Origin: a virus
Length of the DNA stretch: 23,612 nucleotides
IMG/VR virus record: IMGVR_UViG_3300030102_007258
Coordinates: 1-23,612 of that record
Strand: one strand, 5' to 3'
This document shows positions 3,719 through 23,584 of this stretch, in pieces. A program made the position numbers and the translations under genes. Below the pieces are notes generated by a model that was given only the letters and a program-made list of their open reading frames with translations, had not been told where the DNA came from and searched no databases. Position 1 is the first letter of the stretch, and every line of letters starts with the position of its first letter.

Positions 3719-3720
3719 TT

Positions 3721-4605: not shown

Positions 4606-5396
4606 AATTCTGTTCTTGGTATTTGATTTGATGAAGGATTTCTATCTGATATAATATTAAATTCTATTCCTTTATTTTTTAGGTAATTATATAATGCTAG
4701 GGCTGATTTAACTACTGTGTTTACTTCATGGTAATTCATAGGAGTAGGGGCGTAAGCCATTTGTTCTTGAGTATCCTCATAAAAATGATCTTGCCAAATA
4801 TCTTCTCTTAAATTATCTCCTTTGAATTTACTTACATCACCTATGTCCCATCCTAAAGTAATAATCTTACTAACTCCTAAATATACTGCTAAATGTATTA
4901 CAGTCTCATACATTATCCCAGGCCCATACATTCTTTCTAGAGTTTTATCTAACTCCCATTCTTCAAAATTTTCTAACCCCGCTTGAGAATTATCTATTCT
5001 ATGGATAATATCTGGGTGGTGATTACCTGTTACTGGGAGCATTAGTTCACACTTAAGATTATTATCTAAAATCATGTTAGGATGGAACTGTTCAAACACC
5101 TCCCATACTACAATGTTAGTAGTATCTTTATAATCGTAAGGTTGGAAATTAGTAAAATTTAAAACATGAAAATCAGTTACAGATTTAATTAAATTGAAAG
5201 CTTGTTTAATTGAGATTACTAATTTATCTTTTAACTTACTTTCCAATTCCTCACTAGTATAGTTCTTTAAAGAAGGCCCTCCAGTAACAATATAACAAGT
5301 TTCTCCCTTAAAAGCATCTTTTAATACTTTAAGTCTTTCGGGGATGTCCTCGAGTTGATTTATTTGTTGTAAAAGATCTTTAGTTTTAGTCTTCAT
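4602..5396 (-). CDS. CstII (GT42)/MptE-like protein, candidate CMP-sugar transferase
   Basis: The 264-aa protein has the two signatures shared by GT42 sialyltransferases and the related MptE-like (DUF115) group. These are an N-terminal glycine loop YIVTGGPSLKNY (TGGPSLKNY at residues 38-46) and a C-terminal block from residue 157 to 184 running YGPGIMYETVIHLA to IITLGWD. In CstII the equivalent segments hold the CMP moiety. The gene directly follows the fusion that carries a CMP-sugar synthetase domain (11-base overlap), which supports a CMP-activated donor. A likely role is transfer of a CMP-ulosonate onto a glycan or protein. Alternatives are an MptE-like pyrophosphokinase or a non-catalytic flagellin-glycosylation-type protein. 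The fold call rests on motif memory, not on a search. Confidence 0.6.
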   Translation of the reverse strand: MKTKTKDLLQQINQLEDIPERLKVLKDAFKGETCYIVTGGPSLKNYTSEELESKLKDKLVISIKQAFNLIKSVTDFHVLNFTNFQPYDYKDTTNIVVWEVFEQFHPNMILDNNLKCELMLPVTGNHHPDIIHRIDNSQAGLENFEEWELDKTLERMYGPGIMYETVIHLAVYLGVSKIITLGWDIGDVSKFKGDNLREDIWQDHFYEDTQEQMAYAPTPMNYHEVNTVVKSALALYNYLKNKGIEFNIISDRNPSSNQIPRTEL

Positions 5397-7044
5397 GCCA
5401 ATTATTTTCTATTACAACGATATCCTCGGGGTAGTCTACAGCATATGAAACATTATTTAACTCTAACATTTTAACTTTCATTCCTTTTTCTAAACACCTT
5501 ACTATTTCAATATCCTCAATACTCTCTAAAGGTGTTTTTTTATTAGAATTAAATTCTTTTAGTTGTTTCTTATTGAAAACATAAATACAAACCTGTTTTT
5601 TTACTGATGTATAATCACCTTGTTTGGACCCGGGCAATACACTTCTACTTGAATATATTAACTCATTATTGAGATTACAAATTACTTTAGGTATTTTTTT
5701 ATCAGTAGCCTCTTCGTCTTTATGAAGATTAGACATACAATTAATCACATAATCTTTATTAGAAGATTTTAATTCTATAGCTTTTACAATATCATTAGGA
5801 TTAACCATAGGTTCATCACCTTGGATATTTACTATAATATCAGCATCAATCTCTAAAGAAGCTTCTGCTACTCGATCAGTACCTGTTAAACAATCATCTG
5901 AGGTCAATATAGCTTTGTATCCATCTTTAGTTACTAAATCAGATATTTGTTTATTTTCAGTGGCTATATAAACATTTTCCTTACCTACAGCTTCTTTAGC
6001 TTGATCAGCTACCCTAAGTACCATTTCCCTTCCAAGTATTTTAGCTAAAGGTTTTCCTGGGAATCTAGTTGATTTATATCTAGCAGGGATTATAACTGCT
6101 ACTTTTTGTTTAGTAATAGATTTTAGGTAATCATCATCAAATGAATTCCTAGACTTTAATGTTTCTAAAATTTTTAAAGTTTGCTTAGAAGATAAATCCC
6201 ATTGATTTATACCTTGAGAGTATAGAGGGTGGATGCTATCCCTTCCTGATTGATGGAAAATAATATTTTTCCCCCATCCATAATGGTGTTTTAAAATATT
6301 AAACTTTTCTACTAAATTAAATATTTCAGGGGTCATAATACCTTTATGTACTAATAACTGTTCTGTAGTAACATTACCAACACCTCTCCCCATTCCAGTA
6401 ATAGTTCCGTCTATATACTTTACTCCATTTTCAATAGCTGCTAAACAGTTTGCAAATGCCAACCCCATATTATCATGGGTATGAATCCCACTAGCATATG
6501 AAGATAAAGATTTTACATCTTTAGGTAGAAGAGAACCATAACTATCAGCAATATAAAAAGCCTCTATATCTAATCCATCAATGATTAATTTAAAATCCAT
6601 TACTTGTTCTTCTTCTAAAAGGGATACCCCCATCAAATTACAAATAACAGTATAATTTAGTTCTTTTAAGATTTTTACTATAGAAGTAAGGTGAGGTGCT
6701 TCATTATATTTAGCAGCTACTCTACAAATTTTAAATAATGAAGCTGGTTTAATAGTATCCCTTAGTAATTTTTCATTTAATCTATTTTTTTCTACAAAAT
6801 CCTTAACATCAATCATAAATGCTAAATCAGATTTTATTGGAAAATTAATTACAGAAGAGATAAATCCATCATTACATTTTCTGTAGGGACCACCCTTTAA
6901 AGGTGATTTATAACCTAGTTCAATAATATCAACATTTCCATCTAGTGCTTTAACTAAATCTCTAACTAGCTCAGTTTCAAAACTCCAATTAGTATAGTAA
7001 CCTCCATCTCTAAAGGTACAATCTAAAATTTTAAATTCTTTCAT
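5386..7044 (-). CDS. Fusion: HMGL-type aldolase + KdsB-type CMP-sugar synthetase
   Basis: This single 552-aa protein carries two enzymes. Residues 1 to about 300 form a DRE-TIM metallolyase/aldolase: LDCTFRDGG (7-15) supplies the Asp and Arg, and HTHDNMG (188-194) supplies the two metal-binding histidines, as in 4-hydroxy-2-oxovalerate aldolases. Residues about 314-552 form a 3-deoxy-manno-octulosonate cytidylyltransferase-like domain: IPARYKSTRFPGKPL (319-333) binds the CTP phosphates, NIQGDEP (406-412) binds metal, YSSRSVLPGS lies in the sugar pocket, and DYPED is at 537-541. At about 238 residues this domain is close to full KdsB length. The expected chemistry is pyruvate-type aldol formation of a keto-acid sugar followed by CMP activation, which is inference. 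The KdsB 'PW' position reads 'PG', so the sugar may not be Kdo. It overlaps both neighbours. Confidence 0.88.
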   Translation of the reverse strand: MKEFKILDCTFRDGGYYTNWSFETELVRDLVKALDGNVDIIELGYKSPLKGGPYRKCNDGFISSVINFPIKSDLAFMIDVKDFVEKNRLNEKLLRDTIKPASLFKICRVAAKYNEAPHLTSIVKILKELNYTVICNLMGVSLLEEEQVMDFKLIIDGLDIEAFYIADSYGSLLPKDVKSLSSYASGIHTHDNMGLAFANCLAAIENGVKYIDGTITGMGRGVGNVTTEQLLVHKGIMTPEIFNLVEKFNILKHHYGWGKNIIFHQSGRDSIHPLYSQGINQWDLSSKQTLKILETLKSRNSFDDDYLKSITKQKVAVIIPARYKSTRFPGKPLAKILGREMVLRVADQAKEAVGKENVYIATENKQISDLVTKDGYKAILTSDDCLTGTDRVAEASLEIDADIIVNIQGDEPMVNPNDIVKAIELKSSNKDYVINCMSNLHKDEEATDKKIPKVICNLNNELIYSSRSVLPGSKQGDYTSVKKQVCIYVFNKKQLKEFNSNKKTPLESIEDIEIVRCLEKGMKVKMLELNNVSYAVDYPEDIVVIENNWHED

Positions 7045-7897
7045 TTAGTTTTTGTATTTCTTTAGTATAATTAGATTCTGATTTACCTCTCATTTTACTT
7101 TGATTATTTTTCCTCTTAATAAAAGGATCCATAGAATAAGACCTATAAACTCTATCTTCTTTTACTATGATATCATTTAGAATATACTGTTTTATGTCAT
7201 ATCCTTTATTTTTTAATAAATTAGCTCCTTCTGCTACAAATGTATCATCTAGACCATAATGTCCCAAGCTATCAGGAATGTCTATTAAATTAAGGAGGTC
7301 TTTACTAAAAACGTTAAACCACCCCCCTCCAAATTTAATGTAAGGGGACACTATTAGTTCAATATCTTTGGGAGTATGACTGAATACTTGGTATGGATCT
7401 TGTAGCCATTGTTGGTGATCTCTATCTAAATTTCTATAATTTTGGTTTGAAATAACATCCCAACTTTTATCCCAAAGTTGAAAAATTTGAGGGGTAATGA
7501 TATAATGCTCATTCCTAATTTGCCCTATAGCTTGGTTTATATAAAATAGTATATTATCTGGGAAGATGAGATCGGTGTCTAAGTAAGCTATATGAGTAGT
7601 ATTATCCTTAGACCTAATAGCTTCCCTCCTAACTGAATTACATCCAGTTTGTTCATAAGATACTTTTTGATCATTATGAAAAGGACTTTTTTTAAAAATT
7701 AAATCAAATTTATCTACACAGAATTCTTTAGTTAATAGAGATTCATCCCAATTAATATCTTCATCTGATACATTTAAAGTAAAATCTAATGTGAAATCCT
7801 TAGGATCAATAAATCTAGAACTTCTTTTAAGTTGATCTACAATCCAAGCTACTTGATCTAATTCATTAGGTAAACAATGTAAAACTATTTTGGTCAT
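7031..7897 (-). CDS. Putative GT-A fold glycosyltransferase
   Basis: This is a 288-aa protein. A DxD-type motif, YLDTDLIFPDN (LDTD at residues 106-109), follows a RREAIRSKDN helix, which is the usual order in GT-A enzymes (nucleotide-contacting helix, then the metal site). Later PYIKFGGGWFNVFSKDLL resembles the acceptor-side loop, and YGLDDTFVAEGANLL resembles the ED/DD catalytic region. No membrane segment is visible. The C-terminus is basic (FIKRKNNQSKMRGK). It overlaps the next gene by 14 bases and the previous by 4 (ATGA), so it is part of the same transcription unit. Substrate is unknown. Confidence 0.7.
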   Translation of the reverse strand: MTKIVLHCLPNELDQVAWIVDQLKRSSRFIDPKDFTLDFTLNVSDEDINWDESLLTKEFCVDKFDLIFKKSPFHNDQKVSYEQTGCNSVRREAIRSKDNTTHIAYLDTDLIFPDNILFYINQAIGQIRNEHYIITPQIFQLWDKSWDVISNQNYRNLDRDHQQWLQDPYQVFSHTPKDIELIVSPYIKFGGGWFNVFSKDLLNLIDIPDSLGHYGLDDTFVAEGANLLKNKGYDIKQYILNDIIVKEDRVYRSYSMDPFIKRKNNQSKMRGKSESNYTKEIQKLNERI

Positions 7898-8541
7898 ATA
7901 CTACTATACAATTCATTTTGTTTTTCTTGTCTATCTATAGTTTTAGGGTGATACAATGACCATTCTTCTTCAGCAGGTAAATGGGCATGGCATGAATGTG
8001 ATACAATACGTTCATGTACTTTACCTTGCCATTTTAAACGTACTTCCCCGAACCACCCCGTCCACTTACTGTTTTTATAAATTCTACCTTGATGATCTGG
8101 GAAGTTGATCCATCCATTCTTATTTTTCTTCCATCTCCATCTAGTTAAATGTTCTTCAGTTAGTCCTTCAACTGTATTTACTCTAGGAACATAAAATAAA
8201 TCTACATTATTCTCTAGTAAATTAGGGAGATTTTTAATTAAGTTTTCATGAGGTAATTCATCAGCATCAATTTGAAAAATATATTCTGTACTACAGAAAT
8301 CAAATAATCTATTTTTATAATCAGCAAAATCACCATTAAATTCATATGGATACCAAGCAAACTCATTATTTACCGAGTGTGTTCTTAAATATTCTTCTAC
8401 TATAGAGGTGCCATTAGTATTATCAAAAAGTACTACAATTTCATCATCAATAGATTTATTTTTTAGTAAAAATGGTATTAATCTTTGTATTTCTACAAAC
8501 TCATTACAAACTGTAATGGCATAAGTAACTGTTTTTTTCAT
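7894..8541 (-). CDS. GT2-family glycosyltransferase (WaaE-like)
   Basis: This is a compact 215-aa GT2 enzyme. The N-terminal strand TYAITVCNE is followed by EIVVLFDNTNGTS, then FQIDADE (IDADE at residues 91-95) as the metal-binding site, and a later KVHER (VHE at 175-177). The VHE element is characteristic of the WaaE/KdtX-like and related GT2 proteins that act on lipopolysaccharide cores. The length is short, about the catalytic domain only. It overlaps the 55-aa gene at 8538-8705 by 4 bases (ATGA). A lipopolysaccharide-type acceptor is suggested by family resemblance only. Confidence 0.85.
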   Translation of the reverse strand: MKKTVTYAITVCNEFVEIQRLIPFLLKNKSIDDEIVVLFDNTNGTSIVEEYLRTHSVNNEFAWYPYEFNGDFADYKNRLFDFCSTEYIFQIDADELPHENLIKNLPNLLENNVDLFYVPRVNTVEGLTEEHLTRWRWKKNKNGWINFPDHQGRIYKNSKWTGWFGEVRLKWQGKVHERIVSHSCHAHLPAEEEWSLYHPKTIDRQEKQNELYSSI

Positions 8542-8705
8542 TTAATAATATTTTCTTCTCTACAGGGAAGAGTAGTTCCGTTATGGGTTCTTATCATATA
8601 AAGAGTATAATATTTTCCTTTATTGTTTGCTCTACTAATTGAGGAAATATAACCTTCATGTAACTCCCCTGTAAAATTAAATTTAACAAAGTCTCCTATT
8701 TTCAT
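8538..8705 (-). CDS. 55-aa small basic protein, unknown function
   Basis: A short frame runs from ATG 8705 to a TGA at 8538-8540, beginning MKIGDFVKFNFTGEL and ending with EENIIK. It fills exactly the gap between the zinc-ribbon gene (its start overlaps that stop as ATGA) and the GT2 gene (its stop overlaps that start as ATGA). This double translational coupling is strong evidence that it is expressed. The residues alternate hydrophobic and polar (GDFVKF, GYISSI, YYTLYMI), suggesting a small SH3/KOW-like beta barrel. No catalytic motif is visible. Function is unknown; the fold is a guess. Confidence 0.72.
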   Translation of the reverse strand: MKIGDFVKFNFTGELHEGYISSISRANNKGKYYTLYMIRTHNGTTLPCREENIIK

Positions 8706-9148
8706 AATACGCCAATATACTCAAGAGCATCCATATAGTCACGCTCAACAAACTCCTTCATTGTAGACATATCCATTTTGTTTTCAAAATAGGTACCATC
8801 TTTTTTCTTGAATTTTTCCTTTTCCTCCTCTTTAACATTAGTAGATTTTACTGCTGCCCACTTCCAATTTTCATGGTTTGGGCCATTAGCGAATACCATT
8901 CCCTTATCAGGAACATTTACATAAGAGGGAATCCAAATCATACCTGTATCTTCTTCCTCTCCCATCAAAACTTTATATAGTTCTGGGAGGGTTTCAGCCA
9001 TTTGTTCAAATAGTTCTTCTCCTTTTTTATATAGGGTATTTGAGATAAAACCACAACCATAACACATATAGTTTTTAATCTTCTCGTTTACCTCTTGAAC
9101 GTAACAGGCATCTGAACCGCATCTATTACAAGTTATTAGATTATCCAT
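8702..9148 (-). CDS. Zinc-ribbon protein, unknown function
   Basis: This is a 148-aa protein. The N-terminal 35 residues form a zinc ribbon with paired cysteines: C7/C10 (CNRC) and C29/C32 (CYGC). The rest is an acidic and lysine-rich domain with MGEEEDTGMIWIPSYVN, a segment around GPNHENWKWAAVK, and a C-terminal helix EFVERDYMDAL. No enzymatic signature was recognised. It overlaps the GT-B gene at 9141 by 8 bases and is coupled to the 55-aa gene downstream. Its place within the sugar island does not itself imply a sugar role, since small zinc-ribbon proteins are scattered through T4-like genomes. Confidence 0.75.
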   Translation of the reverse strand: MDNLITCNRCGSDACYVQEVNEKIKNYMCYGCGFISNTLYKKGEELFEQMAETLPELYKVLMGEEEDTGMIWIPSYVNVPDKGMVFANGPNHENWKWAAVKSTNVKEEEKEKFKKKDGTYFENKMDMSTMKEFVERDYMDALEYIGVL

Positions 9149-10421
9149 CTTTTTTCTTTAGTTTAGGTAGTTGTAATTTAGGAAGTTCAAGTTTTACTTC
9201 TTTAGAGATTTCAGGAATATTTTGTTCTAGAATTTCTATAAGTTTTTCTCCCATTTTCGAAAGGCTAAAGTTTTCTTTGGAATAATAAGCTTGTCTCTTA
9301 GCCAACTCTTGATACTTTTTATAATTCTCATAAACATCTTTAATATAAAAACCAACTTCACCATCATTAGGAGAGAACCACTGGTAATCTGGGAGGATCA
9401 TATCCTTTTGGGCTGCAGATGGGTGTACATTTTTTAACTCACCACTAACCATACAACAAAAATCTTTCTTTAAAAAGTCTACATGACCAGACCAATTTGT
9501 AGTTAAAATAGGTTTTTTAACCAACGAAAATTCTAGTAAAGGTCTACCAAATCCTTCCCCCTTAGTAAACATCATAAATGCTTTTACTTTAGGATGATTA
9601 TAGAGCTCATTTAATTGCTTTTCAGATAAATCACCATGTAAAATATAAATAGAAGGTAAACGTGATGAATTTACAGAGGATTTAATTTGTTCTACTCTCT
9701 TTACTAATTCATCTCTCCCCATATACGAGGAATTTCCTATTGGGGTTTTCAAAATTAGAGCAGGAGCTTTCTTTTTGTTTTTAAATACCTCTAGGAATGC
9801 TTTAATTGTATAACTAATATTTTTTCTATCTTCTCCAAAATCACCTTGCAACCAATGTCCTACACATAGATAAGCAAAATCCTCTTTAATATCTAAAGGA
9901 AAATCACTAGCTTTACTTACAAATGTATCTAAATTAACCCCTTCAAATAATACCTCAATTGGTTTATTTACTTTTAGCTCACCAACTACTTGATTTTGTT
10001 GATTCTGTTGTTGGTATCTGGATTCAAGGAATGTTTTCTTGGAATGTTCAGAAGGGACTAATGTTAGATTCATTCTGTTTACGCCCTCTAACCAAGAGTG
10101 ATGTACCCCTGTTGTTTCCATCCCAGCTGTAATACCAATATTATATTTTCCTACGGGTTGGAACTCATTTGGTACAGTAATTTGAGCCCAAATATCAGGT
10201 TGTTGATTAAGTTGAGGTTCCTTATAGAGATATTGATCTAAAAATCCCCATTTTTCACTATGGTCCCTAATATAACCCCAAGCAGTATTACCCCACCTTT
10301 GTGGGATAATTTTAACATCATACTTATCAGATTCAATAATCGTTTTTACTAAATCTCTACTGCGACTACCATACCCACTGTACGTATCAATAGGACAACT
10401 TATATAAAACGTATTCTTCAT
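9141..10421 (-). CDS. GT-B (GT4-type) glycosyltransferase
   Basis: This 426-aa protein has a two-domain GT-B layout. The N-terminal acceptor domain starts with a strand and a glycine-rich turn (DTYSGYGSRSRDLV). The C-terminal donor domain carries the EX7E signature as E289 and E297 in TKGEGFGRPLLE, followed by the usual PILTTNWSGHVDF strand. The linker region includes LVPSEHSKKTF and VLFEGVNLDTF, both typical of GT4 enzymes ('vpNGvd'). The C-terminus is a Lys/Leu-rich tail (LPKLQLPKLKKKDG) that may contact membrane or partner. Its start overlaps the stop of the next GT-B gene by 1 base. Donor and acceptor are unknown. Confidence 0.88.
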   Translation of the reverse strand: MKNTFYISCPIDTYSGYGSRSRDLVKTIIESDKYDVKIIPQRWGNTAWGYIRDHSEKWGFLDQYLYKEPQLNQQPDIWAQITVPNEFQPVGKYNIGITAGMETTGVHHSWLEGVNRMNLTLVPSEHSKKTFLESRYQQQNQQNQVVGELKVNKPIEVLFEGVNLDTFVSKASDFPLDIKEDFAYLCVGHWLQGDFGEDRKNISYTIKAFLEVFKNKKKAPALILKTPIGNSSYMGRDELVKRVEQIKSSVNSSRLPSIYILHGDLSEKQLNELYNHPKVKAFMMFTKGEGFGRPLLEFSLVKKPILTTNWSGHVDFLKKDFCCMVSGELKNVHPSAAQKDMILPDYQWFSPNDGEVGFYIKDVYENYKKYQELAKRQAYYSKENFSLSKMGEKLIEILEQNIPEISKEVKLELPKLQLPKLKKKDG

Positions 10422-11848
10422 TAATAAACTAATTTATGTTTTGTACTATTATCAGGTAAACCATCTACTTTAAAAAATTCAAACGTCTCTCTAGGTGTCC
10501 AACTTTCAAGCAAATCATCAACCCCTTCAATTACCCTTTGGGCTTGAGCGAATGTATTAAAACCTGCTTCCTCAGACAAACACCACTCACGACCTGCTAA
10601 TCCATTTTCCTTTCTTTCCTCTTTACTCATCCAATGTACTTCCTCTAATTTCCTAGCAGCATCCTCAGGGGCACATCTATCATCCCAAATATAAGGGGTA
10701 GGAGGAGAACCTTGGATTGAACGATTGGAAGGGAATACGGGTGCAGCCCATTTTCCATGTTTAATATAAGTCCCTTTATGATTTGAAGGGACATCTTTTG
10801 ATGGTGTAAACCAATTTCCTTTCTCATCAGTGAATCTCATTTGATCCTGCATACCACCTGTTACGTTAGCTAAAATCATAGTTCCCGCTAACATTGATTC
10901 AGTTAAGGTGAGTCCCCATCCCTCATTTGAGGTTAATAAACAAGTAACATCAGCTATATTATATAACCAATTTAGTTGTTCTGCTGATAGTTTTTGATGA
11001 GAGAACCTAACATCAAACCCTTCAATATTATTTAGAGTTTCAACTACCTTAGGTAAATCAGTTCCATTTTCATCAACAGGTTGAGTATGCAACAATAGAG
11101 TACATTTTTTCCTTTCCTCAACTGAAAGGTTTTCAAGAAACAAACGATAAGCAAAGATCAGATCCGGAATAGATTTCCTACGAATATTTCTAGAGTTAAA
11201 GAACACTACAAACTCCTTATCACCTACTACTTGACTTTTAAAATTCAAAAAGTCAGGTGTTTCCTCTACCGGCTTATAGATTTCCGGATTCAAACCATGA
11301 GGAACATACCTAATTACCTTCCCATCTGCTTTTTCTCCCAGCACAATCTCATTGATGAACTTTGTTTGCTTTGAGATAGCCAACAACGCATCACATGACT
11401 CATAAAACGCCCTGTTGTAGTTTGGAGCTGGAAGGTCATCCCAAATGTTTAGATATACTATTGGGGTTGTTTTCCTAACCTCATTTTCAATTTGAAACAA
11501 CCAAGTATAATAGCGTGGATCTGTAATGATAAACAATGCATCAGGTTTTTCTTCCCTAATGATGGTTCTAATTAAATCAGGGTCTCCATATCCGTTGTTA
11601 CATAAAACATGAACCCAACTATCTTTAATTTTAGCTTGCTCATTTACATCTCCGGATATATCAAATCGTTTTCCTTGATCGGGGTGATTAATAGCTGCCC
11701 CAATGGTTAGCCAATTAAAGTGGTGGGCAGTTTGAATAACTATCTCTCTAGATACTGTTCCTACTCCTGAATGTAATCTGATGTCATCTCCTAACAGAAG
11801 TATCTTTTTTCGATCTTTCTGTTCTTTATAACGAAACTTGTTTTCCAT
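10421..11848 (-). CDS. GT-B (GT4-type) glycosyltransferase
   Basis: This is a 475-aa GT-B enzyme. LLLGDDIRLHSGVGTVSRE near the N-terminus is the glycine-rich acceptor-domain loop. YVPHGLNPEIYKP (about residues 181-193) is the inter-domain 'hGvd' element, FFNSRNIRRKSIP marks the start of the donor domain, and TSNEGWGLTLTE carries the EX7E pair E309/E317. It is the second GT-B gene in tandem with the one at 9141-10421 but is not an obvious recent duplicate. The leader is AAATTT-ATG with no Shine-Dalgarno sequence. It lies 5 bases after the ribbon-helix-helix gene and so is probably expressed with it. Specificity is unknown. Confidence 0.9.
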   Translation of the reverse strand: MENKFRYKEQKDRKKILLLGDDIRLHSGVGTVSREIVIQTAHHFNWLTIGAAINHPDQGKRFDISGDVNEQAKIKDSWVHVLCNNGYGDPDLIRTIIREEKPDALFIITDPRYYTWLFQIENEVRKTTPIVYLNIWDDLPAPNYNRAFYESCDALLAISKQTKFINEIVLGEKADGKVIRYVPHGLNPEIYKPVEETPDFLNFKSQVVGDKEFVVFFNSRNIRRKSIPDLIFAYRLFLENLSVEERKKCTLLLHTQPVDENGTDLPKVVETLNNIEGFDVRFSHQKLSAEQLNWLYNIADVTCLLTSNEGWGLTLTESMLAGTMILANVTGGMQDQMRFTDEKGNWFTPSKDVPSNHKGTYIKHGKWAAPVFPSNRSIQGSPPTPYIWDDRCAPEDAARKLEEVHWMSKEERKENGLAGREWCLSEEAGFNTFAQAQRVIEGVDDLLESWTPRETFEFFKVDGLPDNSTKHKLVY

Positions 11849-16599: not shown

Positions 16600-17526
16600 T
16601 TAAAAATTAAAAAATTGTTTAATATAAGGGTTAACATTTAATTGCCATTCTAAATCTGAATAAAATCCTTCTAATTTATTTAATAGAATAGTATCAAATG
16701 ATTTTTTTCTGTCAACATATTCTTCCATAAATGTACGAATTTTATCTGGGATGTCAAATTCTAGGAATGCTAATGTTTCTATTTTGTATGAGTTAGGTTT
16801 TAGGTATACCCACTTAACTTTATCACCTTGTACTATTTCGGAATATTTTTTATCTAATTTCCATAAATGTAAAAGGTCATTATAACGAATAGCTGCCTTA
16901 ACAGGAGCAGGAGCACCTAATTTTATACTTGAGAGTATTTCCCCATTTCGTCTAGGACCAACATAACTATTTAATTTTTTAACTGAGGTCGGGTTACCTA
17001 ACAGTACGGGATCTAAATTAGTTAATACTTTATCTCTAAACTCATGGATTTGCTTATCAATTTCATCTTGAGTAACTCCTCTTATGACTTGGTCTAACAA
17101 TTTATTAAAAAACTTCCCAAACAAAGGTGGGAAATTAGCTTTCATAAACTCTAAACCTTTAATATCAAGTTTATCTACGTCTACTCCTTCTGATTTAGTA
17201 ATCCATTGGGCATATCTGCGGGTTGCTCTAAAGTAAGCTGCTCTAATTACCGCTTCGGTTTTCATTTCAAACCTGTGAGAATCATTTATATTAAAAATGG
17301 TCTTAGCCATTTCATCATAATACTCATTTATAAGGTCTTGGTATTTTAAAGCAACACTTTCTAGTAAATTATCTTTTTCTTCATCTGTTTTTTCTTCAAA
17401 ATCAGGATAAAGGTGTTTTACTAGAGGTTCGGCATTTACATAAAGAGAATCTGTATCATTGTAAGAGATAAAATTAGTATCTCCTTCATCACATATGAAC
17501 CAAGGTACTTTCTCTAAATGCTTCAT
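16600..17526 (-). CDS. 43B: Family B DNA polymerase, C-terminal piece (motif C and thumb), gp43B-like
   Basis: This 308-aa protein starts just before motif C: SYNDTDSLYV (21-30) carries the two catalytic aspartates of the palm. It continues through the rest of the palm (KTEAVIRAAYFRATRRYAQW, with KKRY-type residues) to the thumb. The C-terminus reads PYIKQFFNF, resembling the short aromatic tail that binds the sliding clamp in T4 gp43. Together with the 572-aa piece the total is 880 aa, against 898 for intact T4 gp43, so little appears missing. It starts with ATG overlapping the Smr stop (ATGA). Activity would require assembly of the two chains, because motifs A and B are on the other one. 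Confidence 0.95.
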   Translation of the reverse strand: MKHLEKVPWFICDEGDTNFISYNDTDSLYVNAEPLVKHLYPDFEEKTDEEKDNLLESVALKYQDLINEYYDEMAKTIFNINDSHRFEMKTEAVIRAAYFRATRRYAQWITKSEGVDVDKLDIKGLEFMKANFPPLFGKFFNKLLDQVIRGVTQDEIDKQIHEFRDKVLTNLDPVLLGNPTSVKKLNSYVGPRRNGEILSSIKLGAPAPVKAAIRYNDLLHLWKLDKKYSEIVQGDKVKWVYLKPNSYKIETLAFLEFDIPDKIRTFMEEYVDRKKSFDTILLNKLEGFYSDLEWQLNVNPYIKQFFNF

Positions 17527-17738
17527 GCAACTACTCGTATTTCGCCTAAATTGTTAGCCGGAATATAATACTTGTATTCTAACCCATCAAGCCATTCTGT
17601 TACAAGATCCTGCATTTTTTGGGAATTTCCTGTAATAATTTTATAATGTTTTTGATCGGGATGCTCCCAGAAAAAATGTTGAGTTAATCTACTTTCAACA
17701 TCAATATGCTTTACTCCATGTAAATCTAGTTCTTTCAC
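17523..17738 (-). CDS. Small Smr-domain protein inserted between polymerase pieces
   Basis: This is a 71-aa stand-alone Smr domain, the fold found at the end of MutS2. The N-terminal LDLHG motif is at residues 4-8, the glycine loop is ITGNSQKMQDLV (family form: TGxGxG/S), and it ends GEIRVVA, as in the final strand. Smr domains often nick or cleave nucleic acids or bind RNA. The loop here has N-S instead of G-x-G, so activity is uncertain. It starts with GTG overlapping the stop of the polymerase N-piece (GTGA) and ends in an ATGA overlap with the C-piece, so all three are one translation unit. It has replaced the homing endonuclease often seen at split phage genes. Confidence 0.82.
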   Translation of the reverse strand: MKELDLHGVKHIDVESRLTQHFFWEHPDQKHYKIITGNSQKMQDLVTEWLDGLEYKYYIPANNLGEIRVVA

Positions 17739-19453
17739 AATATTGTTTCTTGTTTTAATACCTTATTCATATGTCTATTTACAAATAAAGAGCTTTCTTG
17801 AATTATTCTTTGACCACTCAATGTAATGGCCTCAGAAAGTATAACACTACCAAATCTAAAACTTGATAAAGCTAGAGCACCATATAAAGAATTAAGTAAG
17901 ATTTTCATTGTATATTGTCTCAAATGCCAAAACTCACCTTTTTCGGTATCTTTAGATTTGTAAGCTTCTTTCATTTTATTTTTATACTCTACCCTTTCAT
18001 CAAACCATTTAGATAAAACTTTAGACAACACAGATTTTTTATCTGGTCTAAACATAACCCCATTTGCTGAGACATGGATGTTTTTTTCTTTAATAGTTTT
18101 AATAAGAGTTTTTGCTGGGAGTTGGGTGAGTTCTCGTTTAGCATTCTCTACTGCAAGTTGGGTATCAGGATCCATTTGTTCAAGATCATTTAGACCTAAT
18201 CTACAATTAAATATTTCTTTGCCTTCTACTACAACTTTTTCTTGTACTGTGTCTCCATCAGGGAAAATTCTACCTATGTAAGTTTCTTTTCCTATATTAA
18301 TAGACATAATAATCGATGGATATAGTGAAGTTAAATCTTCATCGAACATATAACGGTATAATCCCGCATTAGGACAAAATAAATATGCTCCTGCGTAATT
18401 CTTTTTAGTAATTGGGTTTGGATCTTTTGAGGGAGGTACTTGATTATTACCTAATAGATAAGTAGAAATAGCACCATCATGCACCCAACTATTTTTATAA
18501 ACGTCTCTATAGTTGATTTTACCTTTATGAGCTAAGTTTTTAGTTAGACCTAAATATTGAAATTTTTCATCTAACTTTTGTAGGATTTCAACATCACGAA
18601 AGTTGTATTCAATAAACTTATCAATGTCTTCTCTAAATAACCTATCCAGAGATCCATCATACTCGACTTTACCTAACCCAACATATTTTTCTCCTAATGA
18701 ATTTAATTTATAAGATGGTTCATCCTTAAAACTAAACTTTTTATGTAATTTCATATAATCAAGTGTTTGAACACCTGCTATATGAAGCCAACCATCAACA
18801 TTCCATTGAGATTCATCTCGAACAATTCCAATTGGAGATAATTGATTTGCTCTTTTTTCCCCTAGTATTCTTTTCATTCTAAAATACAGGTAAGGAATAT
18901 CAAAATAATCTGAGTTATATCCTACTAGAATGTCTGGGGATATATCTTGGAGTTGTCTTAAGAAATACTCTAAAAGATCTTGTTCTGTTCTTACAGGATA
19001 GATTTTTCTATTACCTTCTTGTTTTTCCTGTAATTCCCCCTTTTTATCTAAAATAACAATAGACCATTCATCTATCTGTCTGTCCCACCAAGCAATTGAG
19101 GTAACGGGTTTAGGTGCTTTTTTGATATAATCTTCAGTAAGTGCACCTCCCATTTCAATCTCAATATCGAAAAATACTTCTCTATGGGTTTTAGAGGGAG
19201 TATCATCATCACCATACTTATCAATTAAAAATCTTTGATAAGGTCTGATATCATGGAAATGTAGCCCTTGATCGTATTTATCCCATCTGGTGGTTTTGGA
19301 TAATTTCTCTCCGTTTAGACCAACATACTCTCCATTTGGATCCTCTTTATAAGCAGGATACTCCCATTCTATTTTCTCATAACCACCTTCATCACTCCAT
19401 AGGTGAATTAAGTATTTTTCGTTTACTCGTTGAGAAAAACAACTTTTATACAT
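17735..19453 (-). CDS. 43A: Family B DNA polymerase, N-terminal piece (exonuclease, motifs A and B), gp43A-like
   Basis: This 572-aa protein contains the N-terminal and 3'-5' exonuclease domains plus most of the palm and fingers of a T4 gp43-type polymerase. Exo I FDIE is at 95-98, Exo II YNSDYFD at 179-185 and Exo III YNFRDVE at 283-289. Motif A DEDLTSLYPS is at 371-380 and motif B KILLNSLYGA at 517-526. It ends NRHMNKVLKQETIL and a TGA, just before where motif C should come. Proofreading residues are intact. The C-terminal remainder is encoded separately after the Smr gene. It overlaps the MazG-like gene by 8 bases. There is no intein splice-junction signature at the break. Confidence 0.97.
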   Translation of the reverse strand: MYKSCFSQRVNEKYLIHLWSDEGGYEKIEWEYPAYKEDPNGEYVGLNGEKLSKTTRWDKYDQGLHFHDIRPYQRFLIDKYGDDDTPSKTHREVFFDIEIEMGGALTEDYIKKAPKPVTSIAWWDRQIDEWSIVILDKKGELQEKQEGNRKIYPVRTEQDLLEYFLRQLQDISPDILVGYNSDYFDIPYLYFRMKRILGEKRANQLSPIGIVRDESQWNVDGWLHIAGVQTLDYMKLHKKFSFKDEPSYKLNSLGEKYVGLGKVEYDGSLDRLFREDIDKFIEYNFRDVEILQKLDEKFQYLGLTKNLAHKGKINYRDVYKNSWVHDGAISTYLLGNNQVPPSKDPNPITKKNYAGAYLFCPNAGLYRYMFDEDLTSLYPSIIMSINIGKETYIGRIFPDGDTVQEKVVVEGKEIFNCRLGLNDLEQMDPDTQLAVENAKRELTQLPAKTLIKTIKEKNIHVSANGVMFRPDKKSVLSKVLSKWFDERVEYKNKMKEAYKSKDTEKGEFWHLRQYTMKILLNSLYGALALSSFRFGSVILSEAITLSGQRIIQESSLFVNRHMNKVLKQETIL

Positions 19454-19925
19454 TCAAAAACTGCTTGAGATTTGGTCTAAAATAATTAATTGATTTCATT
19501 ACTTTTCTATCCCTTGATCTGTACACAACCCAATAGTCTCCAACTTTCTCGTGATGGCATGGTTCACCTTGTTGTTCGGAGCGGACTTTAACCGATTCAA
19601 TAGCCTCTTCTTCGGTTTTACAAGCCTTTGACATATTTGAAGCTTGAACTTCTGCATATGCTTGGGGAAAAACATCTTTAAGACCATGTAGCATGGCACC
19701 ATTGCCCAAAGAAACATAGGTAATATCGCAAAGAGCATCAAGTACTTCAACAATGTCTCCTTTTTCACATGCTTCTTTATATTCTTCAAGTTCCTCTAAA
19801 ATAAAATTATAAACAAACTCCCATTCTTTTCGTTCTGGGATTTGTGGGGTGTAGTTGTTTGGTTTTCCCATTGTGGCATTAAATTCTTCTACCTCGCTCA
19901 CATAAGGTACATAATTTTTACTCAT
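19446..19925 (-). CDS. MazG-like all-alpha NTP pyrophosphohydrolase
   Basis: This is a 159-aa protein from ATG 19925. The all-alpha NTP-pyrophosphatase metal motif is present: EELEE (44-48) as ExxE, then E60xxD63 in VEVLDALCDITYV. Such enzymes hydrolyse (d)NTPs or alarmones to monophosphates. Here it may clean up aberrant nucleotides or adjust the pool alongside ThyX and the phosphoribosyltransferase. The rest (VQASNMSKACKTEEEAIE... and HHEKVGDYWVVYRSRDRKV) matches the phosphoribosyl-ATP pyrophosphohydrolase-like proteins of phages. An upstream in-frame TTG at 19955 is ignored because the ATG is better placed and that region is covered by a 42-aa frame. Substrate is unknown. Confidence 0.85.
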   Translation of the reverse strand: MSKNYVPYVSEVEEFNATMGKPNNYTPQIPERKEWEFVYNFILEELEEYKEACEKGDIVEVLDALCDITYVSLGNGAMLHGLKDVFPQAYAEVQASNMSKACKTEEEAIESVKVRSEQQGEPCHHEKVGDYWVVYRSRDRKVMKSINYFRPNLKQFLNV

Positions 19926-20046
19926 AAATACGTTTTTTACTGATTTTGTATACAAGATAACAAGTTGCTAGGATAAATCCCAGATTAACTAAATTAGGAT
20001 GACTATGCTCTCCACAGATTCCTAGTAAATGATATAAAGTTTCCAT
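19918..20046 (-). CDS. 42-aa putative single-span membrane peptide
   Basis: A short frame from ATG 20046 to TAA 19918-19920 starts METLYHLLGICGEHSHP and continues NLVNLGFILATCYLVYKIS, a plausible single transmembrane helix followed by a basic tail (KKRIYE). The ATG lies 8 bases after the folE stop, and the stop lies 5 bases past the MazG ATG (ATGAGTAA). This fit, with no other frame in the gap, supports real coding. I recognise the GICGEHSHP-type start from small peptides of T4-like marine phages but cannot assign a function. Confidence 0.65.
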   Translation of the reverse strand: METLYHLLGICGEHSHPNLVNLGFILATCYLVYKISKKRIYE

Positions 20047-20054
20047 ATTAAATT

Positions 20055-20750
20055 TTAAATGTTATGACCTCCGTTATTAATTTTCAAACTGTCAAAAAAT
20101 TCTTTTCTAGATAAATTTTTATTATCTCTAAATACTCCTGACGCTTTGGTAGTAACCATTGCGGCACCCTGATGTTTTACACCTCTGCAAGATACACAAT
20201 TATGTGTACCTACAATAGTAACAATAACACCTTTATTACCATCAGTAATTTTTGATACGGCATTATGAATTGCTGATGTTAATTGCTCTTGAATAGCTCC
20301 TCTACGCCCAAATAATTCTACAATCCTATTTAATTTACTTAATCCAATTACTTGTCCTCCTTCTCCGGCAATGTAACCAATGTGAACTGCTCCTCCAATG
20401 GTTTGGTGATGGTGTGAACACATTGAAGTTAAAGGAATGTTTCTTTCAATAATGATTCCATCATAACCGTCTGAGGGGAAAGAAGTAATGGGAGACATAG
20501 CTGTATACCTACCTGCCCATAAATCATTAACATATGCTTTAGCTACTCGACGAGGAGTTTCCATTGAGTTAGGATCGTTTCTCCAATCACATCTTAGGGC
20601 ATCTAAAAATTGACCATAAGCAATTTCTGCTTCATCAATCATTTCAGCTTTATCATCCTTTGATAAAGGGAAACCAGGAGCAACTCCGTTTGCAAATCCT
20701 TCTTGTACAACTTCTAGTTCCTCGTGAACTTTTCTACGTTTATTTTCCAT
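20055..20750 (-). CDS. folE: GTP cyclohydrolase I
   Basis: This is a 231-aa FolE. It makes 7,8-dihydroneopterin triphosphate from GTP, the first step of both folate and queuosine/7-deazaguanine synthesis. The zinc ligands are present: C111 and H114 in TSMCSHHH and C185 in HNCVSCRGV (E. coli C110, H113, C181). IGLSKLNRIVELFGRR is the diagnostic block, ending in the usual GVFRDN. The N-terminus is charged (MENKRRKVHEELEVV). It lies in the same unit as QueD and QueE, which use its product, and also as ThyX, which needs folate. About 23 bases separate it from the phosphoribosyltransferase gene. Confidence 0.96.
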   Translation of the reverse strand: MENKRRKVHEELEVVQEGFANGVAPGFPLSKDDKAEMIDEAEIAYGQFLDALRCDWRNDPNSMETPRRVAKAYVNDLWAGRYTAMSPITSFPSDGYDGIIIERNIPLTSMCSHHHQTIGGAVHIGYIAGEGGQVIGLSKLNRIVELFGRRGAIQEQLTSAIHNAVSKITDGNKGVIVTIVGTHNCVSCRGVKHQGAAMVTTKASGVFRDNKNLSRKEFFDSLKINNGGHNI

Positions 20751-20773
20751 ACTTTAAATATAATAAAAACTTT

Positions 20774-21304
20774 TTAAACTGCAAAGATATTTTTATAATT
20801 TCTGTAATAACCTAGTTCATTATCCATCCCGTACCCTACTAACCATTCATCAGTTTTAAAACAGCTAATTACTGGGTATGAGATAGCAGGGTTTGTCGGG
20901 TGGTATAGACTTTTTGGTGAGGTTGTTCTTTGTACTAAAGTAGTTATTGTAATTGATTTTATAGGTTCTTTTTCTAAGTAATTTATAATAGCGTTTACAG
21001 TATTACCTGTATCAAAAATATCATCTACTATATAAACATGATGGTTTTTAAAATCAATCTCAGGTTTTTTGGTTATTTCAACTTTATTTTGTTTCCTTTT
21101 CCCGGTGTAAGATTTTGCTGAGATAAAATCACATTTAACATCTAATTCTAGATTTTTTACTAAATCACTATAGAACATAAAACCACCATTTAATACACCT
21201 AACATAACAATTCCGGTGGGGTCTTCTTTGTGGAATATAGAAGTATCGTAAGCCAGAAGTTTTATTTCTTTTTCTATTTCATCTTGGGTATAAAGTAACT
21301 TCAT
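20774..21304 (-). CDS. Hypoxanthine-type phosphoribosyltransferase
   Basis: This is a 176-aa type I phosphoribosyltransferase. The PRPP motif VYIVDDIFDTGNTVNAI (90-106) is clear. The N-terminal VLNGGFMFYSDLV (37-49) and the SAKSYTGKR flexible loop (62-70) match bacterial Hpt. PVISCFKTDEWLVGYGMD near the end is the purine-pocket strand of Hpt (VGYGxD). It converts hypoxanthine or guanine plus PRPP to IMP or GMP, salvaging bases from degraded host DNA. It overlaps thyX by 4 bases (ATGA). A xanthine or guanine preference, or use of a deazapurine base, cannot be excluded from sequence. Confidence 0.9.
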   Translation of the reverse strand: MKLLYTQDEIEKEIKLLAYDTSIFHKEDPTGIVMLGVLNGGFMFYSDLVKNLELDVKCDFISAKSYTGKRKQNKVEITKKPEIDFKNHHVYIVDDIFDTGNTVNAIINYLEKEPIKSITITTLVQRTTSPKSLYHPTNPAISYPVISCFKTDEWLVGYGMDNELGYYRNYKNIFAV

Positions 21305-21921
21305 CCTAGTTTAAATGCTTTAAGAGTTTGCTTAAAAGGATTTCCTTCTATTTGTTTTACTTGATTTAACATTTCTTCGGCTAATTCTCTAACCTCTTTT
21401 TGGGCGTGACCATCATTCCTTAATTTTTGGAAATGATAAAAACTTCTCCAATTAAACATAACATCCATTGTAATTTGGGAATTCATCATTTTCATAAAAC
21501 GAGATGATTCTTTAGCACGTTTTCTTCCCAATTGCGGAGTAAGTTTTTCTACTAAAAGATGGTAAGCAGCATTAGTATCTTTAGTATAATTTTCAAGAAC
21601 CTCCTGAGCATCTTTAGGCCAATCCCTAGGAATAATATACTTATCTTCTTTTAGTTCTTTATATCTTGCACTCTCCCCATTAATTGAAACCCCAATTCTA
21701 TGTTTCAATAGATGAATATGGGTTGCTTGATCTACTGTTACTAAAAAATGTAAAGATGATTTTTCGAATGGGGTATGATGACCTTCTGTAGCCAACATTT
21801 TAAGTAGTTTATCTATCCTCCCTAGTTTTTCTTCTGTAAGATCTCTGGTTGTAGAGGTCCAAGCTGATTGGGCATGGGTAAGATCACTTCCATAATGCCC
21901 TAATAGTTCTATTTTATTCAT
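21301..21921 (-). CDS. thyX: Flavin-dependent thymidylate synthase
   Basis: This is a 206-aa ThyX. GHHTPFEKSSLHFLV (48-62) and the C-terminal HFQKLRNDGHAQKEVRELA are family elements. The ThyX signature RHRx7S is modified to KHRIGVSINGES (73-84): lysine replaces the first arginine and the spacing is one residue longer than in RHRTASVNEQS. ARY follows as in other ThyX. The enzyme uses FAD, NADPH and methylene-tetrahydrofolate to make dTMP, and its folate comes from the pathway that starts at FolE. It overlaps the 62-aa gene by 4 bases. Confidence 0.93.
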   Translation of the reverse strand: MNKIELLGHYGSDLTHAQSAWTSTTRDLTEEKLGRIDKLLKMLATEGHHTPFEKSSLHFLVTVDQATHIHLLKHRIGVSINGESARYKELKEDKYIIPRDWPKDAQEVLENYTKDTNAAYHLLVEKLTPQLGRKRAKESSRFMKMMNSQITMDVMFNWRSFYHFQKLRNDGHAQKEVRELAEEMLNQVKQIEGNPFKQTLKAFKLG

Positions 21922-22106
21922 AGATGAGATGGTGTTCTAATTTCTTTTACCTCATAGGTACAATTATGGTTACTATTTGCTTGAAACATTTTTGCTGTTT
22001 TTATAGCCTCATCAGGATCATCCCATTCCATAGGAATACCTTCAGGATCATTTACAAGAATAACATGTTGCTGATTTGGGTTGTGTTTTAAAATAATATA
22101 AGACAT
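21918..22106 (-). CDS. 62-aa protein, unknown function
   Basis: This short protein starts MSYIILKHNPNQQHVILVNDPEG. A helical DPDEAIKTAKMFQAN segment and a strand CTYEVKEIRTP follow. The layout resembles small alpha/beta phage proteins of the form 'Y.IL......G...e..d.e.Ai..A..f'. Its start overlaps the queE stop (TAATG) and its end overlaps the thyX start (ATGA), which shows it is part of the operon. No function is assigned. Confidence 0.75.
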   Translation of the reverse strand: MSYIILKHNPNQQHVILVNDPEGIPMEWDDPDEAIKTAKMFQANSNHNCTYEVKEIRTPSHL

Positions 22107-22879
22107 TAGACTTCTCTTTTAGTACCAAAAGCCATAATATGGGCTCTGCTGGTAAAGTTATAACCTTCTCTATTTGCTAAGTCCATCACAGGACCATAAC
22201 TCTCTAATAATGCCTGGATGTCATCTCCTGCGGGCATTAACCAAACTTTATTTTTTGGGATTTTCATTTGATTTAACCAATCCTTAATTTCAGGCCAAAT
22301 TTTCAATTCCTTATCAATTACAGGTTTAATATGATAATCAGAATGATATGCTATAGATTTAGCAATTGCATCATTGTTTAACCTGAATTTATTATGTTTA
22401 TCAATAAACTTTTGATTTACTTCACCACCTTGAGGTTTAATAGCATCCAAAGTAGGAACGGAATTACTAAATTTAGGACTAATAGAAAGAAGGTTAATAG
22501 GGTAATCTGTCTCCAAGTAGTGTGACCCTTCTGTTTCGATGGTGACCAGAATACCCCTTTCATGTGCAAAATTTGTTATTTCATTTACAATTCTTGGATG
22601 CATTGTTGGAGAACCTCCGGTTAACATCATTTCCTTAATGTGAGGATTCTTATCATAAATATCTACTACGTCTTGGAAGCAGTATCTACCCCTTTCGGGG
22701 TGAATTGAGGTATAAAACGAGTCGCACCAACCCCCCTCCCCAAAGTAGCAGCGATGGGTACAACCTGTTGTACGAACTGCTACAGTGGGGTAACCTGCTC
22801 TTGATCCTTCGCTTTGTATACAAGTATACAATTCTAAGATTGGGAGGTTTTTATTATAATCTGTAACTCTTCCTAACAT
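22106..22879 (-). CDS. queE: 7-carboxy-7-deazaguanine synthase (radical SAM)
   Basis: This is a 257-aa radical-SAM enzyme. It turns 6-carboxytetrahydropterin into 7-carboxy-7-deazaguanine. The N-terminal block IQSEGSRAGYPTVAVR (21-36) is the QueE signature. The iron-sulphur cysteines are C40, C44 and C52 in an enlarged CTHRCYFGEGGWC arrangement (CX3CX7C instead of CX3CX2C). The GGE-like SAM site reads TGGSPT (87-92), and SISPKFSN is the conserved central motif. The WLMPAGDD segment near the end is also typical. It overlaps queD and the 62-aa gene by 1 base each. The cluster spacing variant is recalled from phage and marine QueE, not verified. Confidence 0.94.
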   Translation of the reverse strand: MLGRVTDYNKNLPILELYTCIQSEGSRAGYPTVAVRTTGCTHRCYFGEGGWCDSFYTSIHPERGRYCFQDVVDIYDKNPHIKEMMLTGGSPTMHPRIVNEITNFAHERGILVTIETEGSHYLETDYPINLLSISPKFSNSVPTLDAIKPQGGEVNQKFIDKHNKFRLNNDAIAKSIAYHSDYHIKPVIDKELKIWPEIKDWLNQMKIPKNKVWLMPAGDDIQALLESYGPVMDLANREGYNFTSRAHIMAFGTKREV

Positions 22880-23346
22880 TACGATGGGATAAAAATAGCT
22901 GAGTTTTTACCATGTTCTCTAAATTCTACTCTAACTACCTTTACTCTACCTTCTGTTTCTTGTGATATGAAAGGTGCTACTTTATCACAAATGTACTGAG
23001 CAAAACGTTCTGCACCAGTAGCAGGAACAACTCTTACTTGGGCAACACCTGCTTCATCCATTCTTTTAAAACTTTCTAAAAACGGATCATCTTCAGCAAC
23101 CAAAAAGGTATGATCAAACATATAGTCCATCCATTCTTTAGGGGACATACCGTCAATCTTACCTTTTGCTCTTTTCATTCCACCAAAATCCCATACCCAG
23201 TTTCTTTCATCTAGTTCACCCTCAAACCATATCTGGAAGGAAATACCATATCCGTGGAGAAATCTACAATGAGTGTCTTCGGCTTTCCATTGACGGAATA
23301 CTGTAGAAAATCCATCAAATACCTTAGTTGAAATAAAATTACCCAT
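22879..23346 (-). CDS. queD: 6-carboxytetrahydropterin synthase-like protein (QueD)
   Basis: This is a 155-aa QueD/6-pyruvoyltetrahydropterin synthase-fold protein. It converts dihydroneopterin triphosphate to 6-carboxytetrahydropterin, the substrate of the neighbouring QueE. FRQWKAEDTHCRFLHGYGISF (in two parts: residues 17-26, 27-37) stands where standard QueD has FSAAHRL...CxxLHGH. VWDFGG (51-56), FDHTFL (77-82) and the VPATGAERFAQYI region (107-119) match the family. Two of the usual zinc histidines are displaced: the first is F17 and LHGH is LHGY. H26 and H31 may bind metal in a variant way. I recall a subfamily with this FRQW pattern in alphaproteobacteria and phages. It overlaps trx and queE. 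Confidence 0.9.
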   Translation of the reverse strand: MGNFISTKVFDGFSTVFRQWKAEDTHCRFLHGYGISFQIWFEGELDERNWVWDFGGMKRAKGKIDGMSPKEWMDYMFDHTFLVAEDDPFLESFKRMDEAGVAQVRVVPATGAERFAQYICDKVAPFISQETEGRVKVVRVEFREHGKNSAIFIPS

Positions 23347-23584
23347 TGATAAAACGTCCGATTTGTTCCATACTCTTAACTCCTACGAACTTATCTACCA
23401 TATTTCCATTAGCATCTACCTTTACTACTGTAGGTACATTTCTAATTCCATATTTAGCTGATAGTGTAGTATCTTGATCTACATTTACTTTTTGAACTTG
23501 GTAGGTTCTGGATACTTGCTCCATAATTGGTCCAAATGTTTTACAAGGACCACACCAGGGAGCTGAAAAATATATTAGCTTCAT
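23339..23584 (-). CDS. Short thioredoxin
   Basis: This is an 81-aa thioredoxin-fold protein. The redox motif WCGPC is at residues 10-14 and the cis-proline is P51 in RNVPTVV. A Gly-rich segment (DKFVGVKSMEQI) closes the fold. Normal thioredoxins have about 105 residues; here the first helix and strand before the active site are missing, as in small phage thioredoxins/glutaredoxins such as T4 NrdC. It may supply electrons to a phage ribonucleotide reductase, but no nrd gene is in view. It overlaps queD by 8 bases. The 28 bases to the right-hand edge show no gene. Confidence 0.93.
   Translation of the reverse strand: MKLIYFSAPWCGPCKTFGPIMEQVSRTYQVQKVNVDQDTTLSAKYGIRNVPTVVKVDANGNMVDKFVGVKSMEQIGRFING

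Follow-up and report, generated by a model that had tools for sequence, protein, structure and literature searches.

In the Campylobacter phages CP220 and CPt10, 100% of the deoxyguanosine (dG) is replaced by 2'-deoxy-7-amido-7-deazaguanosine (dADG), according to PMC8306585. The present analysis concerns a locus of this kind in a 23,612-base stretch of viral DNA (hereafter the window), which comprises bases 1-23612 of the 37,310-base IMG/VR record IMGVR_UViG_3300030102_007258; the record is itself a fragment and continues for 13.7 kb beyond the window. A preliminary description had recognised FolE, QueD and QueE genes here as a partial 7-deazaguanine pathway. Its gene content makes it most likely that the block belongs to a complete cluster for 7-deazaguanine DNA modification, of a known kind and ordinary for this class of phage. 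Its most informative gene, at 20774-21304, had not been mentioned: it encodes a phosphoribosyltransferase (PRT) that could recycle the guanine displaced from DNA.

The carrier is probably a large phage of Flavobacteria or their kin. Flavobacterium phage immuto (MW353175) resembles it in carrying homologues of QueD, QueE, PRT, FolE, MazG and DpdA as a single run, and in having a QueC, encoded elsewhere in the immuto genome, that lacks the zinc cysteines. The two differ in several respects: in immuto DpdA follows MazG, whereas in the window's record it precedes QueC; the immuto PRT is of the short XGPRT type and that of the window is of the HGPRT type; immuto has genes annotated as QueF and formyltransferase, QueF being without a match in the incomplete record of the window; and the annotated polymerase of immuto belongs to family A, that of the window to family B. 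CP220 likewise encodes a full-length DpdA homologue (34.7% identical) and a QueC, but its pathway genes are scattered, its QueC retains the zinc motif, and the PRT found in both CP220 and CPt10 is of the XGPRT type. Cellulophaga phage phiST and its kin share a QueD-QueE-FolE-MazG block, a PRT and a distant DpdA homologue with the window genome, although the phiST record gave no QueC match and its PRT lies about 19 kb from FolE; the DNA of phiST is said to contain dCDG, the deoxynucleoside of 7-carboxy-7-deazaguanine (CDG). The Queuovirinae-type phages Vibrio 033B and Variovorax VPv64 depart further, with a PRT fused to FolE and a DpdA (phrog_887) that is not recognised by the profile of the window genome's DpdA. 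A purine PRT (TubE) is also encoded together with FolE, QueD and QueE homologues in the tubercidin cluster, as described in PMC6112128, but the gene list given there is without DpdA, the product is a nucleoside antibiotic, and TubE is likened to the window's PRT by description, not by sequence.

Pfam, PHROG and TIGRFAM matches confirmed the FolE (20055..20750), QueE-like (22106..22879) and QueD-like (22879..23346) genes where they had been placed, all on the minus strand. The remark that the window holds neither QueC nor DpdA was literally right, but this is an edge effect, and the flanks, which the preliminary description had proposed to inspect, contain both genes on the same strand and in the same record, less than 2 kb past the window edge. 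In continued numbering, a QueC-family gene lies at 23632-24429 (L004:2133-2930; PF06508, 8.1e-38) and a DpdA homologue of 259 amino acids, recognised by tblastn, at 24635-25414. The word "partial" thus does not fit the pathway, and an inserting enzyme, whose absence was to count against modified DNA, is in all likelihood encoded. The proposal of deazaguanine DNA modification gains support from these two adjoining genes and from a DpdA model with a predicted tRNA-guanine transglycosylase (TGT) fold. As for the claim of one transcription unit, the common strand and the spacing from QueD to FolE (overlaps or gaps of at most 23 bp) agree with it, but promoter-like and terminator-like matches in the block were not clearly above shuffled sequences in our scans; from its layout, a single unit from QueD to FolE is plausible. 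A short run of N near the window edge falls within a thioredoxin-like frame, where it gives X residues. The separate contig L032 repeats the neighbourhood (identities of 96% for QueC, 82% for the thioredoxin-like protein and 95% for QueD) and another, L005, carries DpdA-QueC-Trx-QueD-QueE, so faulty scaffolding does not account for the arrangement. The order DpdA-QueC-(Trx)-QueD-QueE-...-PRT-FolE-MazG-PolB recurred in those loci that were long enough, among 26 selected by DpdA and 20 selected by PRT.

The window's PRT, encoded on the minus strand directly upstream of FolE, has the PRT fold and the loop that binds phosphoribosyl pyrophosphate (PRPP), as seen from PF00156 (3.3e-20; 72.4 bits against a cut-off of 26.3). 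Its match to TIGR01203 (4.1e-33; 114.5 bits) stays below the cut-off of 150, and we therefore classed it as HGPRT-type, a putative guanine salvage enzyme. The profile of the HGPRT-type family found HGPRTs as its best matches in the PDB (3e-38), and the structural model of the window protein (predicted local distance difference test, pLDDT, 92.3) gave a Foldseek top 50 made up entirely of HPRT/HGPRT-type structures. In alignments from which near-copies had been removed by script, as was also done for QueC and DpdA, the PRPP-loop residues D94, D95 and D98, including the purine-specific Asp, were present in 41/41 HGPRT-type sequences, and so was the Asp at the position of human D137, the residue that contacts purine N7. 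The XGPRT-type genes of L126, immuto and phiST matched the NCBIfam xanthine PRT at 3e-19 to 5e-12, all below the cut-off. D92 of E. coli Gpt, the counterpart of the N7-contacting Asp, was invariant in 11/11 aligned XGPRT-type sequences and W134 was invariant in the same alignment.

We observed a link between guanine PRTs and clusters of this kind. Of 80 loci selected by relation to the DNA polymerase and not by PRT, 39 held QueE together with FolE and MazG. Each of these 39 had exactly one guanine PRT, of the HGPRT type in 28 and of the short XGPRT type in 11; in the loci read, the XGPRT-type gene was positioned after FolE. A PRT was likewise found in 16/16 RFC-selected and 9/9 DpdA-selected loci with FolE and QueE. 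The remaining 41 polymerase-selected loci do not have all of QueE, FolE and MazG. FolE is present in 19 of them, 11 with and 8 without a PRT, and five of these eight end at FolE; in L092, L121 and L122 the sequence upstream of FolE, 2 to 5 kb long, held neither PRT nor QueE. The other 22 have no FolE, and one of these carries a PRT. A first pass with an HGPRT profile had suggested that the PRT is confined to part of the clade, a second polymerase clade appearing PRT-less; this was rejected because whole-record searches (49 or 50 records) and the gap 3' of FolE revealed the short XGPRT-type gene. On the polymerase tree the PRT type switches at least twice, as forced by the starred branches, which indicates two or more replacements between the HGPRT and XGPRT types.

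The link extends to cultured phages, with XGPRT-type PRTs in Campylobacter, Cellulophaga, Flavobacterium, Brevundimonas and Synechococcus phages that have this pathway. The phiST PRT matched 34 phage records (Campylobacter 15, Cellulophaga 5, Vibrio 5, Flavobacterium 4, Brevundimonas 2, Synechococcus 1 and two unannotated faecal scaffolds), and FolE or pathway partners were present in the records examined, one or two per named lineage; Campylobacter records with FolE also numbered 15, and one faecal scaffold showed no match besides the PRT in the 16.5 kb examined. In Vibrio 1.207.B, Vibrio 033B and Variovorax VPv64 the PRT forms the N-terminal part of a protein of 300-307 amino acids, the remainder of which is FolE, and in the Vibrio and Variovorax phages the fusion gene lies directly upstream of DpdA (phrog_887). 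The VPv64 PRT domain matched 38 records (Pseudomonas 17, Vibrio 7, Cellulophaga 5, Stenotrophomonas 3, Variovorax 2, Xanthomonas 2 and Sphingomonas 2), in three of which the fusion was examined directly and in the rest by feature names, three rows being unannotated. With E. coli Gpt as the query, 16 of 50,697 records matched, namely 11 Cellulophaga, Flavobacterium and Brevundimonas phages of this kind, three stretches of host-like DNA and two unannotated faecal scaffolds; FolE occurred in 392 of the 50,697. HGPRT-type relatives were found in 17 records of the same collection, none of them phages recognised as carrying the pathway, so the link of the HGPRT type to the pathway is seen only in uncultured contigs. 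Of seven cultured PRT-bearing lineages examined, six have a DpdA homologue: immuto, phiST, CP220, Vibrio, Variovorax VPv64 and, weakly, Brevundimonas MaInes (hhalign probability 69.8%, E 4e-5).

In the cycle that we propose, GTP would pass through FolE and the QueD-like, QueE-like and QueC-family proteins to a free base, either preQ0 or the amide 7-amido-7-deazaguanine (ADG), and the DpdA-like transglycosylase would swap this base for guanine in replicated DNA. Exchange of the TGT type releases guanine, and one guanine would be freed per exchange. The HGPRT encoded next to FolE would couple the released guanine to PRPP, giving GMP, which kinases would convert to GTP to feed FolE, closing the cycle. 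Such a cycle would spare purine, and the removal of guanine would prevent reversal and pull the exchange forward. Guanine is the substrate common to both enzymes, HGPRT using hypoxanthine besides and XGPRT xanthine. Since guanine is also what the exchange sets free, a PRT that neighbours FolE or is fused to it would join the two ends of the guanine cycle. By simple arithmetic, a 168-kb relative that exchanged every guanine would free 2.8-5.5 million guanines per cell (assuming a burst of 50-100 and 33% GC), several-fold more than a pool of about 0.6 million GTP per cell (assuming 1 mM and 1 fL). What the data show is gene content and order, protein families, folds and the association of guanine PRTs with such clusters, fusions to FolE included. 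What each enzyme does, that guanine is what the PRT uses, that the exchange is pulled forward and which base results are inferred from gene content, and on this footing we consider it fairly probable that the window genome has a guanine-replacement pathway in which an HGPRT returns released guanine to GTP for FolE. With slightly less assurance, we also lean towards a wider statement: that phages replacing guanine with 7-deazaguanine commonly carry a dedicated guanine recycler, drawn from two PRT families and fused to FolE in some lineages, which closes the cycle and shifts a reversible exchange towards full replacement.

Nothing addressing the fate of the guanine released by DpdA was found, and the recurrent PRT offers a testable answer; it may also explain how some phages attain full guanine replacement. 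A link between a PRT and phage 7-deazaguanine was not found in the literature searched, including passages of PMC11097641, PMC11309003, PMC8310023 and PMC12398825, and within what was searched the linked guanine PRT is a previously undescribed component of the pathway. It has not gone wholly unnoticed, since a gene of Campylobacter phage F379 is already labelled "purine phosphoribosyltransferase / queuosine biosynthesis protein" by a database annotator. The PRT also provides a new marker of phages with this pathway, since the CP220 and fused forms escape the general PRT model; the CP220 PRT was missed by the first search and found with the phiST PRT as the query.

Several observations weigh against recycling by the PRT. 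At the position of the O6-contacting lysine (human K165), the window's PRT has Q, and just 25 of 41 HGPRT-type relatives have K. The locus samples overlap and include near-copies, so the locus counts given above are not independent. Synechococcus phage BUCT-ZZ01 carries a PRT but yielded no recognisable DpdA, not every open reading frame (ORF) having been tested. The PRT is not obligatory either, because the cultured phages CAjan, 9g and nt-1, which make 7-deazaguanine DNA according to PMC6884629 and PMC8306585, are absent from the PRT matches. The strongest reason for doubt, together with the variable O6-contact position, is TubE, which is encoded beside FolE, QueD and QueE homologues and couples CDG to PRPP (PMC6112128). 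By analogy, the PRT could be a 7-deazaguanine phosphoribosyltransferase whose product would be turned by kinases and ribonucleotide reductase into a deoxynucleotide for the polymerase, leaving DpdA in a secondary role. A polymerase route has been proposed earlier for Campylobacter phages (PMC6884629), FolE-PRT of Brevundimonas MaInes has a gene for a dNMP kinase as its neighbour, and a gene annotated as thymidylate kinase adjoins DpdA in CP220. We nevertheless judge such a role unlikely: DpdA, which inserts a free base, has a homologue in six of the seven cultured PRT-bearing lineages, the N7-contacting Asp is invariant whereas 7-deaza bases have no N7, and fusion of the PRT to FolE, a consumer of GTP, suits the supply of GMP better.

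General purine salvage by a PRT that sits in a nucleotide block by chance is a lesser rival, and we give it a still smaller chance than a TubE-like function. Nucleotide genes do cluster here, as shown by ThyX in the window and ribonucleotide reductase genes in the record, but PRTs of this kind are rare in phages and concentrated in those with 7-deazaguanine, as the Gpt and FolE counts illustrate, and chance would hardly account for two PRT families replacing each other in the cluster or for the PRT-FolE fusion elsewhere. That the pathway serves tRNA (queuosine) and not DNA seems very improbable. The same precursors do serve tRNA modification in bacteria, but the record, although a fragment, gave no match to a canonical TGT (PF01702), and its TGT-fold protein is homologous to the CP220 protein as well as to a phage protein annotated as DNA guanine transglycosylase. 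Recycling of guanine by the PRT thus remains the reading that we prefer.

The pathway enzymes themselves depart from their canonical forms to different degrees. FolE was clearly recognised by PF01227 (2e-41; 141.8 bits against a cut-off of 27) and by TIGR00063 at 1.7e-40, below the equivalog cut-off, and both zinc-ligand motifs were present in 116/125 FolE sequences and readable in the window protein. The QueE-like protein (phrog_2076, 7.9e-48) has the cluster motif CX3CX7C instead of the canonical radical-SAM CX3CX2C; CX3CX7C occurred in 76/93 sequences and CX3CX11C in 5, with 12 unmatched by the pattern. Its TIGR03365 score (2e-15; 57 bits) lies far below the cut-off of 206.1, hence the designation QueE-like. 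The QueD-like protein (PF01242, 2.1e-14; phrog_2389, 7.6e-42) has HGY in place of HGH, as do 73/78 sequences, five being unmatched by the pattern, and by eye the first of the three canonical zinc histidines is absent too; with 30.3 bits to TIGR03367 against 89.25, it was classed as QueD-like. For QueC, the canonical zinc motif is C(x)8CxxCxxC, and the motifs SGGxDS, YxQxHxxE, VPxRN and YPDC (all as given in PMC13329287) are readable in the protein of the window genome. The zinc cysteines were replaced by S/D/S/S in 35/35 clade sequences, those of the window genome and immuto included, and TIGR00364 (132.2 bits against 150.3) places the protein in the QueC family and not among canonical QueCs. 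Both the QueC-family and the QueD-like proteins of the clade are thus without the canonical zinc ligands, while FolE retains its own, and the middle of the pathway is possibly zinc-independent in this clade. By eye, the QueC of VPv64 (L245:1679-2530) also lacks the zinc cysteine motif, and therefore the loss may have occurred more than once. We considered this loss as a sign of an ADG product and dropped the idea, CP220 being reported with dADG and retaining the motif. Because a QueC-family gene is present, preQ0 or ADG appears a likelier end product than CDG.

The DpdA homologue had no Pfam or NCBIfam match, only PHROGs without a function. By tblastn it matched 23 phage records (Campylobacter 14, Flavobacterium 4, Bacillus 4 and Weizmannia 1), and the Flavobacterium matches are annotated as DNA guanine transglycosylase. 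An AlphaFold2 model of the L005 homologue, 61% identical to that of the window genome, had a pLDDT of 94.3 and the TIM-barrel fold of TGT, with Z scores of 17.2 to TGT 1iq8 and 16.9 to DpdA 7ui4, whereas a search of the PDB with the DpdA sequence profile gave nothing credible. D52 and D205 were invariant in 11/11 aligned DpdA sequences, immuto and CP220 included, their superposition on D102 and D280 of TGT being judged from strand order only. The model and the homologues suggest that the protein is most likely a DNA guanine transglycosylase of the TGT superfamily; the subfamily goes by the name DpdA3. Near DpdA, and often overlapping its start, many relatives encode a 157-amino-acid protein of no recognised family (L004:4298-4771), for which family searches gave no match. 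Many copies, although not that of the window genome, end in an RGRPPK tail, which resembles an AT-hook. From its position, the protein is a possible partner of DpdA.

The other genes of the run, all on the minus strand within the window, are less telling. FolE is followed by a MazG/PRA-PH-like NTP pyrophosphohydrolase at 19446..19955 (PF01503, 2.1e-10; phrog_671). The flavin-dependent thymidylate synthase ThyX at 21301..21921 (TIGR02170, 1.6e-28, above the cut-off) sits within the run but probably outside the 7-deazaguanine pathway. Between ThyX and QueE lies a 62-amino-acid ORF without a family match (21918..22106), with similar ORFs 3' of QueE in some relatives, and the thioredoxin-like protein at 23339..23584 (PF00085, 5.5e-17) separates QueC and QueD, as it does in many relatives. 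Beyond the window, a 70-amino-acid ORF lies between the QueC-family gene and the DpdA homologue, and further ORFs and the ribonucleotide reductase genes follow past DpdA, upstream in the direction of transcription. The family B DNA polymerase (16600-19453) is split into ORFs at 17735-19453 and 16600-17526 by a GTG-start ORF of 71 amino acids at 17523-17738, Smr-like by eye, with 4-bp overlaps; such an ORF is present in the split of many relatives, others being split without it. The first 11,848 bases of the window (1-11848) hold a long run of glycosyltransferase-like and sugar-nucleotide genes, recognised by eye from their translations.

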